Shown here: positions 60,309 through 64,000 of the stretch, piece by piece
How the letters are laid out: each line of letters begins with the position of its first letter
Position numbering within the stretch: the stretch's first letter is position 1
NCBI RefSeq assembly: GCF_003046475.1
Contig: NZ_PZZZ01000006.1
Location: 287,540-351,539, forward strand
Length of the DNA: 64,000 nucleotides
Reading direction: 5' to 3'
From: Mycoplana dimorpha
GTDB lineage: Bacteria; Pseudomonadota; Alphaproteobacteria; Rhizobiales; Rhizobiaceae
Position numbers and translations under genes: made by a program
Notes under the pieces: generated by a model
What the model was told of the DNA's origin: nothing
The model's database searches: none
The model's input: only the letters and a program-made list of their open reading frames with translations

Positions 60309-61106
60309 ATGGCCGTCTTCGAAGTCCGGCAAGGCACCTCGCCGGTCATCCTCGCCTTTCCGCATACGGGGACCTTCGTCCCCGATGCGATCCAGGCGCG
60401 GCTGAACGACAACGGCAAGATTCTTGCCGATACCGACTGGCACATCTTCGAGCTCTATGACGGGCTGCTCGACAACGTGACGACGGTGCGGGCGACCTTC
60501 CACCGCTACGTCATCGACGCCAACCGCGACCCGGAAGGCGTCAGCCTCTATCCCGGCCAGAACACCACCGGGCTGGTACCCGAGACCGACTTCGACGGCA
60601 CGCCGATCTGGAAGGAGGGCGAAGCCCCCAACGCGGACGACATCGCCGCCCGGTTGAGGGACTTTCACGCCCCCTATCACGCCGCCCTCGCCGCCGAGAT
60701 CGAGCGCGTGAAGGCCATCCATGGCCTCGCCGTGCTCTATGACTGCCATTCGATCCGCTCGCACATCCCCTTCCTCTTCGAAGGCACGCTGCCGGATTTC
60801 AACATCGGCACCGACATGGGCAGGACCTGCGATCCGCGCATTGAGGCCGCAACCTTCGAGATTTGCGCCGCCAGCGGCCGCACGCACGTGCTGAACGGCC
60901 GCTTCAAGGGCGGCTGGACCACGCGTCATTACGGCAAACCGGAAATGGGCGTTCACGCCATCCAGATGGAGCTGGCCCAATCCAGCCATCTGGCCAGCGA
61001 GACCGTGCCTTTCGCCTATGACGAGGCCAAGGCCGCGGCGCTGCGCCAGAGCCTTGCCGCGATCCTCGCGCGGCTTGCCGCCCTCGCACCGGAGTTGAAG
61101 GGATGA
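60309..61106 (+). CDS. hutG: N-formylglutamate deformylase
   Basis: 265 residues. HutG-type amidohydrolase with FPHTGTFVP, DTDWHIFELYDG, YDCHSIRSHIP and FKGGWTTRHYG, which carry the metal and catalytic residues. It releases formate from N-formylglutamate to give glutamate and so completes the HutF branch. It starts two bases after hutH and overlaps the CoA-transferase gene by four bases. Confidence 0.93.
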   Translation: MAVFEVRQGTSPVILAFPHTGTFVPDAIQARLNDNGKILADTDWHIFELYDGLLDNVTTVRATFHRYVIDANRDPEGVSLYPGQNTTGLVPETDFDGTPIWKEGEAPNADDIAARLRDFHAPYHAALAAEIERVKAIHGLAVLYDCHSIRSHIPFLFEGTLPDFNIGTDMGRTCDPRIEAATFEICAASGRTHVLNGRFKGGWTTRHYGKPEMGVHAIQMELAQSSHLASETVPFAYDEAKAAALRQSLAAILARLAALAPELKG

Positions 61107-62251
61107 GCGGGCCGCTCTCGGGCATCAAGGTCCTGGACCTGTCGCGCGTTCTGGCAGGGCCGTATTGCACGGCGCTGCTGGCTGATCTCGGCGCCGAGGT
61201 CATCAAGCTCGAGCCGCCGGCCGGTGACGACTACCGGCACGTCGGGCCGTTCAAGGATGGCGAAAGTGCGCTGTTCACGCTGAACAACCGCGGCAAGAAA
61301 AGCCTCGCGCTGGACCTGAAGAAGCCGGCCGACCTGGAACTCGCGCAGGCGCTTGCAGCCCGCGTCGACGTCGTGGTTGAGAATTTCCGCCCCGGCGTCG
61401 CCGCCCGCCTGGGCCTCGGCGCCGAGGCGTTGCGCAAGGCCAATCCGCGGCTGGTCTATTGCTCCATTTCCGGCTTCGGCCAGGAAGGTCCCTTCAAGGA
61501 CCTGCCGGCATATGATCTGGTCGTGCAGGCCATGTCCGGGCTGATGGCCGCGACCGGCGAGGATGGCGGTGCGCCGCTGAAGACCGGCGAAAGCATCGCC
61601 GATCTGGTCGCGGGCCTGTTCGCCAGCTGGTCGATCATGGCCGCATTGGTTCAGCGCAATGCCACCGGGGCGGGCGCGACGCTCGACATCGCCATGTACG
61701 ATGCGCTGTTCTCGATGCTGACCACCAGCCATGCCCAGCATTTCTACGGCGGCGTGCTGCCCGGCCGGGTCGGCAACCGCCATCCGCTGTCCACCCCCTT
61801 CGGCTGCTTCAGTACGCGCGATGGCCAGGTGGTGATCGCCGTTCTGAACGGCGGCCAGTTCGAACGGCTCGCCGCCTTTATCGGCAAGCCGGAGATCGCC
61901 GCCGATCCGCGCTTTGCCACCGACAGCAGCCGCACCGAGCATGAGCCAGCGCTGCGGGCCTTGATCGAGGAGTGGACCGGTGGACTGACGACCGAGGAGG
62001 CCGTTGCGGCCTTGGCCGCGCAGGGCCTTCCGACTGCGCCGATCTGGGATATTGCGCAGGCTGCGGACAATGAGCACACGGCTGCTCGCGGTCTGGTCAG
62101 CATGCTCGCGCACCCCGTTCTCGGTCGGACGCCCGTGGTCGGCCAGCCGGTGCGCTTCGACGGCGCCAAGCCCGTGGCTTCGACGGCCGCGCCCCGCCTC
62201 GGCGGTGATATCGAGGCTGTCCTGAAGGAATTTGGATTGGAGGAAGCATGA
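61103..62251 (+). CDS. CaiB/BaiF family (class III) CoA-transferase inside the hut operon
   Basis: 382 residues. Class III CoA-transferase with the catalytic Asp167 (ESIADLVAG), which forms the acyl anhydride with the acid substrate; AGPYCTALLADLGAEVIKLEPP at the start is typical. It moves CoA between carboxylic acids. It is joined by ATGA overlaps to hutG before it and the acyl-CoA dehydrogenase after it, so all are made together. In this place the likely acids are urocanate and imidazole-propionate, by analogy with CaiB; that is inference. Confidence 0.88.
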   Translation: MSGPLSGIKVLDLSRVLAGPYCTALLADLGAEVIKLEPPAGDDYRHVGPFKDGESALFTLNNRGKKSLALDLKKPADLELAQALAARVDVVVENFRPGVAARLGLGAEALRKANPRLVYCSISGFGQEGPFKDLPAYDLVVQAMSGLMAATGEDGGAPLKTGESIADLVAGLFASWSIMAALVQRNATGAGATLDIAMYDALFSMLTTSHAQHFYGGVLPGRVGNRHPLSTPFGCFSTRDGQVVIAVLNGGQFERLAAFIGKPEIAADPRFATDSSRTEHEPALRALIEEWTGGLTTEEAVAALAAQGLPTAPIWDIAQAADNEHTAARGLVSMLAHPVLGRTPVVGQPVRFDGAKPVASTAAPRLGGDIEAVLKEFGLEEA

Positions 62252-63411
62252 CGCAGATCGACGATCCCTGGCACATGCTATCCGAAGAGGAGCGCATGTT
62301 CTGCGAGGTGCTGGAGCGGCTGTGCGGCGACAAGATCGCCCCGCTTGCAGCCGAGACCGACGAGACCTCGTGCTTTGTCCATGCGCAACTCGCCCTTCTC
62401 GGAGAGGCGGGCATGATGGGGGCCAACCTGCCGGAAGAACATGGCGGCAGCGGCATCTCCGCGCCGGCCCTGCTGCGCGCGGTTTCCATCGTGGCCGGAG
62501 CCTGCGGCTCGACCGCCTCGGCACTGACGGCGCATTATCTCGCGACCGATTCCATCCTGATCGGCGGCACCGAGACGCAGAAGCAGGAATGGCTGACCAG
62601 GGCCGCCACCGGCGAGGCGCTCGGCGCCTTCGCCCTGACTGAGCCCACCGCCGGTTCCGACCCCGCCGACATGAAGACGCGGGCGCGGCGTACGGAGACC
62701 GGCTGGCACCTCAAGGGCACCAAGTGCTTCATCTCCAACGGCGGCGTGGCCGATTTCATCGTCGTCTACGCGGTGACCGAACCCGAGAAGGCGCATCGCG
62801 GCATCTCTGCCTTCATCCTGCCGAAGGGCACGCCCGGACTTGACGCCGGCCCGCCGGAAAAGACCATGGGCCTGAAGGGCGGCCATGTCTTCACTCTCAA
62901 CCTCGACTGCGAGCTTCCCGAAAGCGCGCTTTTGGGCGAGGAGGGCAAGGGCTTCCGCACCGCCATGCAGGTTCTCGACAACGGCCGCATCGAGGTCGCC
63001 GCGCAGTGCCTCGGCCTGGCTGGCGCGGCGATGAACGCGGCGATCGCCTATGCCAAGGAGCGCATCATCGGCGGCATTGCGCTGTCGGAGCGGCAGGGCA
63101 TCCGCTGGATGATCGCCGACATGGGCCTGGCCTTCCACTCGGCGCTGCTCTTGTCGCAGGAGGCTGCACGCCAGCGCGATCTGGCGCATCATCACGGCGG
63201 CCGCTTCTCGCTGGCCTCGTCCATGGCCAAGCTCGGCGCCTCCGAGGCCGCGGGCAAGATCGCCGATACCGCCCTGCAGCTGCATGGCGGCTACGGCTAT
63301 ACCCGTGATTTCCCAATCGAGCGGATCAATCGCGATCTGCGCATCATGCGCATTTACGAGGGATCCAGCGAAATCCAACGCATCATCATCTCCGGCAACA
63401 TGCTGGCCTGA
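62248..63411 (+). CDS. Acyl-CoA dehydrogenase inside the hut operon
   Basis: 387 residues, standard length. The FAD-binding [11 protein letters not shown] and the [13 protein letters not shown] stretch are present; the catalytic base is Glu371 in [11 protein letters not shown]. It introduces or removes an alpha-beta double bond in an acyl-CoA, with electrons going to ETF. It is coupled to the CoA-transferase by ATGA and lies 13 bases upstream of hutU. Together with the transferase it recalls CaiA-CaiB; the substrate proposed from context is imidazole-propionyl-CoA. Confidence 0.88.
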
Positions 63412-63424
63412 CAGGGAGCGAACC

Positions 63425-64000
63425 ATGAGCAATCCAAGACATAACATGCGCGACATCTTCCCCCCGACCGGCTCCGAGATCACGGCCAAGAGCTGGCTGA
63501 CCGAGGCGCCCATGCGGATGCTGATGAACAACCTGCATCCCGACGTCGCCGAAAACCCGCACGAGCTGGTCGTCTATGGCGGCATCGGCCGCGCGGCTCG
63601 CACCTGGGCGGACTTCGACAAGATCGTCGCGACCCTGAAGGATCTGAACGAGGACGAAACCCTGCTCGTCCAGTCCGGCAAGCCGGTCGGCGTGTTCCGC
63701 ACCCACAAGGATGCGCCGCGCGTGCTGATCGCCAACTCCAACCTGGTACCGCACTGGGCCAACTGGGATCACTTCAACGAGCTGGATAAGAAGGGCCTGG
63801 CCATGTACGGCCAGATGACCGCCGGCTCGTGGATCTACATCGGCACCCAGGGCATCGTTCAGGGCACCTACGAGACTTTCGTCGAGGCCGGCCGCCAGCA
63901 CTACGGCGGCAACCTCAAGGGCAAGTGGGTGCTGACCGGCGGCCTCGGCGGCATGGGCGGCGCCCAGCCGCTCGCCGCCGTCATGGCCGGCGCCTCCTGC
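63425..64000 (+). CDS. hutU: Urocanate hydratase, N-terminal part
   Basis: The first 192 residues of a protein usually about 555 long; the window ends within it. The start is ATG at 63425, after [33 protein letters not shown], and the NAD-binding [14 protein letters not shown] are classical HutU features. It adds water to urocanate to form imidazolonepropionate. It follows the acyl-CoA dehydrogenase by 13 bases on the same strand, so the hut operon continues beyond the window. Confidence 0.95.

Follow-up and report, generated by a model that had tools for sequence, protein, structure and literature searches.

The end of a 64,000-nucleotide stretch of Mycoplana dimorpha DNA (contig NZ_PZZZ01000006.1, positions 287,540 to 351,539 of the forward strand; hereafter the window) is occupied by a cluster of histidine utilization (hut) genes. 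The cluster comprises hutC, a minus-strand hutF, and a plus-strand series hutI-hutH-hutG-caiB-acd-hutU, in which caiB encodes a coenzyme A (CoA) transferase and acd an acyl-CoA dehydrogenase (Table 1). This caiB-acd pair, and the part it may play in the breakdown of imidazole propionate, is the subject of the present analysis. The pair is tightly built into the operon. The hutG gene starts at 60309, two bases past the hutH stop; its own stop shares an ATGA with the caiB start (61103-61106), a second ATGA joins the caiB stop to the acd start (62248-62251), and a gap of 13 bases separates the acd end at 63411 from the hutU start at 63425. These four-base overlaps and the 13-base gap had already been given in a first-pass annotation of this DNA, and its reading of the sequence was exact. 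In a profile search of the window proteins, HutI, HutH, HutG and HutF all exceed their NCBIfam cut-offs. The hutU fragment falls below its cut-off of 375 bits because the gene extends beyond the window; it is complete in the source genome, where it scores 968.7 bits.

Both inserted genes encode recognizable members of known families. The CoA_transf_3 domain spans residues 5-369 of the CoA-transferase, placing it in class III (CaiB/BaiF), and the N-terminal, middle and C-terminal Acyl-CoA_dh domains of the dehydrogenase are all over their cut-offs. Asp167 of the CoA-transferase, which we take to be catalytic by analogy with formyl-CoA transferase, is present in all 81 aligned rows and aligns with an Asp of PDB entry 10uh. 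Glu371 in the YEG motif, presumably the catalytic residue of the dehydrogenase, is found in 75 of 76 rows, the remaining row having a gap there; locus L082 was omitted from this alignment as too short, and four loci yielded no dehydrogenase row. Comparison of alignments further marks 13 dehydrogenase positions as special to the clade described below. The domains and residues suffice to settle both folds. The CoA-transferase is predicted to move CoA between two carboxylates.

Table 1. Features of the hut cluster and its surroundings in the window.
Feature	Position	Strand	Evidence
hutC repressor	50663..51421 (start approximate)	+	TIGR02018 293.6 bits, cut-off 220
HisC-like aminotransferase, accessory, putative role	51478..52578	-	TIGR01141 303.4 bits, cut-off 276.55
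FAD/NAD/2Fe-2S reductase, accessory, probably paired with the Rieske oxygenase	52627..53736	-	Pfam domains
VanA-type Rieske oxygenase, accessory	53750..54802	-	PF00355, PF19112
LysR regulator, accessory	54917..55861	+	homologues 52-55% identical in L077, L078, L081
hutF, formimidoylglutamate deiminase	56067..57413	-	TIGR02022 620.5 bits
proposed HutC operator TGTATATACA, hutF-hutI gap	57475..57484	.	sole TGTANNTACA in window
hutI, imidazolonepropionase	57515..58774	+	TIGR01224 437.9 bits
hutH, histidine ammonia-lyase	58771..60306	+	TIGR01225 744.8 bits
hutG, N-formylglutamate deformylase	60309..61106	+	TIGR02017 389.8 bits
caiB, CaiB-type class III CoA-transferase, proposed imidazole-propionate CoA-transferase	61103..62251	+	PF02515 435.9 bits; Asp167
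acd, acyl-CoA dehydrogenase, proposed imidazole-propionyl-CoA dehydrogenase	62248..63411	+	PF02771, PF02770, PF00441; Glu371
hutU, urocanate hydratase, 5' part; remainder past window	63425..64000	+	TIGR01228 338 bits (fragment)

Conservation and genomic settings of the pair

A scan of GTDB genomes for relatives of the CoA-transferase confirmed 454, of which the best 80 were analysed, the edge of the clade lying beyond this view. The dehydrogenase gene is immediately 3' of the CoA-transferase gene in 76 of these 80 loci (L numbers; genomes carry G numbers). The four exceptions are L079, which ends at the gene, L091, with a dehydrogenase start at the contig end, and L084 and L087. In 33 of the 80 loci the pair stands between hutH/G and hutU, that is, no more than 300 bases downstream of hutH or hutG and with hutU no more than 300 bases after acd. 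A local accident of insertion was rejected as an explanation, since these 33 relatives have the same insertion. A hut gene is found in the fetched stretch of 48 of the 80 loci, the hutU remnant of L063 being counted. A tree of 111 CoA-transferases, made with a quick method and a midpoint root, sets one clade of 84 apart from 27 paralogues (Shimodaira-Hasegawa-like approximate likelihood ratio test, 99); the clade holds the window protein, the 80 loci and three orthologues from a 150-genome sample of the window's order. The module is found in both Alpha- and Betaproteobacteria. Among the matches listed for the order sample, only four genomes, the window's included, have one of at least 53% identity, which the other four members of the family in the sample lack; with just four of 150 genomes holding it, we call the pair patchy in the order, and it may be mobile.

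The settings of the pair differ among these loci. Setting A, in which the pair is enclosed by hut genes, is that of the window and is shared by Mesorhizobium soli, Paracoccus denitrificans and others. In setting B, it lies away from hut and an amino-acid-type ATP-binding cassette transporter follows, as seen in the five such loci displayed (L035, L036, L043, L048 and L058; the binding protein of L036 matches PF00497). Setting C, with the pair divergent from a LysR gene, occurs in Comamonas, Burkholderia, Microvirga and roseobacters; hutH lies 4.8-5.6 kb from the pair in eight loci of Comamonas and betaproteobacterial relatives, including Comamonas testosteroni (4.8 kb). Setting D is that of Pseudaminobacter arsenicus (L077) and a Mesorhizobium (L078), where the neighbours are a LysR gene, a Rieske oxygenase, its reductase, a HisC-like aminotransferase and a GlcD-like dehydrogenase, all homologous to extra genes in or just past the window's cluster. 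A natural deletion is seen in Paracoccus alkanivorans (L063, 9517-12669), in which the hut genes around the pair have been reduced to remnants: before caiB, a 5' piece of hutI and a 3' piece of hutG; after acd, both extremities of hutU, its middle missing. The stretch has no hutH match. Here caiB and acd match at full length, operator-like sites are present, and a complete hutU is found at another place in the genome. If this is not an assembly fault, the pair was retained where the surrounding hut genes were lost.

Stand-alone operons also bear on electron flow and transport. Of eight Burkholderiaceae loci, three (Burkholderia anthina L107, Burkholderia sp. L110 and Paraburkholderia sacchari L112) continue past the pair with etfB and etfA, the genes for electron-transfer flavoprotein (ETF), and a gene for an NCS1-type permease. 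Five Comamonas loci have a permease 49-51% identical to it, which adjoins hutU in four; the stretch of the fifth, L088, ends before the hutU position. The permease is thus common to the stand-alone Burkholderia pair (L107 14291-15721) and the Comamonas hut cluster (L085 1263-2735), and is a candidate carrier of urocanate or imidazole propionate. A regulon study includes COG1457 permeases of no assigned substrate in HutC regulons (PMC5343134), and on our reading the NCS1-type permease belongs to COG1457. HutTu is described as a urocanate-specific transporter of Pseudomonas, in passages that do not state its family, and we do not tie it to this permease.

The idea that a CaiB paralogue of any kind could take this place near hut was rejected by comparing the places of CaiB and hutU in the order sample. 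By eye and among the matches listed, G000, G027, G041 and G081 are the only genomes in which the two share a contig and lie no more than 20 kb apart; in G039 a contig end separates them. G041 and G081 have a different CaiB paralogue, 41% identical and about 70-80 bases behind hutF (L119 8268-9515 and L120 8313-9476), and no match to the dehydrogenase is found in their 19 kb stretches. In L087 (4264-8929), TRAP-transporter-like genes, as judged by eye, precede the CoA-transferase of Pseudolabrys, a member of the clade of 84, and hutH is 6 kb off.

Operators and co-occurrence with urocanate hydratase

In Pseudomonas, HutC has a footprinted consensus, TGTA-N2-TACA, and urocanate abolishes its protection of a weaker site, as passages of PMC12977541 report. 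The 64 kb window has one match to TGTANNTACA, in the hutF-hutI gap, against 0.03 expected, and three of 100 shuffles had one. This putative operator would place the genes of the cluster under the control of HutC, with urocanate relieving the repressor. Exact copies of TGTATATACA stand 113-130 bases before caiB in L077, L078 and L079, all three of the hut-less loci of type D. The GntR regulator of L077 scores 293.9 bits with the HutC model and is 59% identical to the window HutC; together with the regulators upstream of the pair in L035, L036 and L048 (setting B), it makes four of four tested beside hut-less pairs that exceed the HutC cut-off.

For the Mesorhizobium/Paracoccus group, an operator matrix was trained on hut-inserted loci only, using 27 sites from the hutF-hutI gaps of 12 such loci. 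Applied to the hut-less loci of type B, it finds the top-scoring site of the entire locus ahead of caiB in nine of nine, at a distance of 67-264 bases and with 24.0-29.2 bits. The controls reach at most 12.6 bits in 20 shuffled loci, where shuffling preserves single-base composition only, and 10.9 bits in 26 paralogue loci, a weaker control because these measure 4 kb each versus 21 kb. The nine loci are partly dependent, L035/L036 and L039/L098 being near-identical there, and L039 and L040 have just 1.6 and 3.5 kb before caiB. The type B sites are predicted to bind HutC.

The pair also keeps company with hutU where the two are not joined. Of the 47 loci not inserted in hut, 46 were submitted (L060 was left out) and 45 genomes were searched: a hutU match was found in 43 of 45, 42 of them over the cut-off and several being fragments at contig ends, and a hutH match in 41 of 42, 40 of them over the cut-off. 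By comparison, hutU is present in 75 of the 150 genomes of the window's order, or 71 of 146 once the four orthologue holders are set aside. Fisher's test of the latter against 43 of 45 gives p = 1.8e-9, which is only indicative because the two groups differ in taxonomy, the 45 including Rhodobacterales and Burkholderiales and the 150 controls being of one order. In nine genomes (G152, G154, G155, G157, G164, G168, G179, G181 and G187) the hutU match is accompanied by another of the same family, which mostly scores 635-711 bits (919.5 in G168); some of these additional matches may be thiourocanate hydratases.

Proposed route and competing explanations

Urocanate and imidazole propionate differ solely in an alpha-beta double bond. 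Acyl-CoA dehydrogenases require a CoA ester, which a class III transferase can supply from urocanyl-CoA, freeing urocanate without ATP. We consider it likely that the pair forms a branch by which imidazole propionate enters the Hut pathway, ending in urocanate for HutU. The CoA-transferase would move CoA from urocanyl-CoA to imidazole propionate, the donor of the first round probably being succinyl-CoA or similar, and the dehydrogenase would convert imidazole-propionyl-CoA to urocanyl-CoA. Electrons would pass to ETF, on to ETF:quinone oxidoreductase and into respiration, and the following CoA transfer would release urocanate for HutU. The source genome has one adjacent ETF gene pair and one ETF:quinone oxidoreductase, and oxidation with respiratory electrons therefore fits. 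The same reading, with CoA passed from urocanyl-CoA to imidazole propionate, oxidation, and urocanate handed to HutU, had been put forward in the first-pass annotation, and the support it now has is purely genomic: insertion, operators, co-occurrence with hutU and catalytic residues. That annotation would have given the reading up had the pair not been conserved with hut in relatives, and the insertions and neighbouring hut genes counted above attest such conservation. The operators, stand-alone operons, ETF genes and other accessory genes go beyond that annotation.

Several observations weigh against this reading. Because neither enzyme reaches any NCBIfam equivalog cut-off in the profile search, the sequence leaves the substrate unfixed. 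No dehydrogenase gene lies within 10 kb downstream of the CoA-transferase gene in L084 and L087, and 32 of the 80 stretches are without a hut gene, some through contig ends. No hutU was found in two pair-holding genomes, G183 (a metagenome-assembled genome) and G189, and the sole hutU match of G169 is of the lower-scoring class, at 700 bits. As for regulation, the type B sites resemble the footprinted Pseudomonas consensus and do not equal it; their assignment to HutC therefore rests on position and neighbouring regulators. L067, a locus with hut genes nearby, does not pass the operator test (7.7 bits), and in 21 more loci (20 hut-less ones outside types B and D, and L087) the best scores within 300 bases of caiB are 14.6 bits (L103) and 13.0 bits (L104), these two being the only ones slightly above the shuffle maximum there. 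Several of these 21 low-scoring loci have a LysR gene of their own.

Other substrates or directions can be weighed against the same data. The pair might act on another histidine-derived propionate, such as N-methylated imidazole propionate, or broadly on arylpropionates, with the product only partly reaching HutU; a VanA-type Rieske oxygenase is encoded in the same cluster and by homologues in the L077, L078 and L081 stretches, but with L071 added such genes occur in just four of 80 stretches, and we judge this unlikely. Less probable still is a role of the pair in the metabolism of an unrelated acid (glutarate, or one that is branched or dicarboxylic), with co-transcription as its only tie to hut. 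The top model for the CoA-transferase is indeed succinate-glutarate CoA-transferase (NF052585), at 318.7 of the required 750 bits, but the glutaryl-CoA dehydrogenase model (NF045552) is far below its cut-off (204.9 of 470 bits), and both hut linkage and operator sharing recur in differing arrangements. A reversed pair, which would dispose of electrons by reducing urocanate to imidazole propionate, is the most improbable of all: the nearest NCBIfam model of the dehydrogenase is acryloyl-CoA reductase (NF042972, 352.4 bits, under its cut-off of 640) and caffeyl-CoA reductase CarC is among its PDB relatives, but the genome has one ETF pair with an ETF:quinone oxidoreductase, the operon, a catabolic one, has at its end HutU, which would compete for urocanate, and Pseudomonas (now Comamonas) testosteroni degrades imidazolylpropionate, as the title of Coote and Hassall 1973 states.

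Around the imidazole-propionate branch proposed here lie the HisC-like aminotransferase and the Rieske oxygenase with its reductase (Table 1) and, beyond the window (L114 13373-15376), a gene for HutD fused to a GlcD/D-lactate-dehydrogenase-like protein with flavin adenine dinucleotide (FAD). These extra genes could give imidazole lactate and methylated imidazoles a way into hut. A second HisC over the cut-off is encoded elsewhere in the source genome, and G027 has a Rieske homologue about 10 kb before caiB. A literature search on methylhistidine demethylases returned general Rieske papers only. We offer as a tentative and rather doubtful extension a general funnel for imidazole acids, in which caiB/acd would serve imidazole propionate, the HutD-fused 2-hydroxy-acid dehydrogenase and the HisC-like aminotransferase would convert imidazole lactate, through imidazole pyruvate, into histidine, and the Rieske oxygenase would N-demethylate methylated imidazoles, all under HutC and the local LysR regulator.

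Comparison with known systems

Imidazole propionate is a diabetes-linked gut metabolite, a gut bacterial product that the abstract of PMC7676231 reports to impair glucose metabolism. If the proposed route is true, the pair would provide a genetic basis for a growth trait from a 1973 paper, and an enzyme pair that could remove imidazole propionate. Our literature search, with most subscription journals outside its coverage, found no paper naming genes for imidazole-propionate breakdown.

The closest parallels combine the same classes of enzyme. In carnitine metabolism, CaiB and CaiA are a class III CoA-transferase and an acyl-CoA dehydrogenase that act at the alpha-beta bond of crotonobetaine and gamma-butyrobetaine, with CoA recycled from product to substrate. 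The window pair has the same pairing but lies far under the carnitine cut-offs (NF002914, 132.2 of 413 bits; NF002885, 161.4 of 540 bits), forms part of hut and probably works in the oxidative direction. Clostridium sporogenes forms phenyl- and indole-propionate with FldA and AcdA-EtfAB, likewise a CaiB-family transferase and a dehydrogenase on an aryl-acrylyl/aryl-propionyl CoA pair, in a reductive fermentation with a dehydratase; in contrast, the window pair is proposed to be oxidative, and its genome yielded a single ETF pair. UrdA of gut bacteria shares the very substrate and product, reducing urocanate to imidazole propionate according to passages of PMC13320830, whereas a CoA-dependent oxidation is proposed here. 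The physiology named in the title of Coote and Hassall 1973 would be accounted for by the pair, which is present in C. testosteroni itself (L085, L088). Finally, the HutC regulon of Proteobacteria, as its HutC section presents it (PMC5343134), covers hut genes and accessory transporters, and the window cluster likewise has a hutC gene and a TGTA-N2-TACA operator before the operon; the difference is that this section names no CoA-transferase or acyl-CoA dehydrogenase. Set beside these systems, the pair is a new use of known enzyme families.

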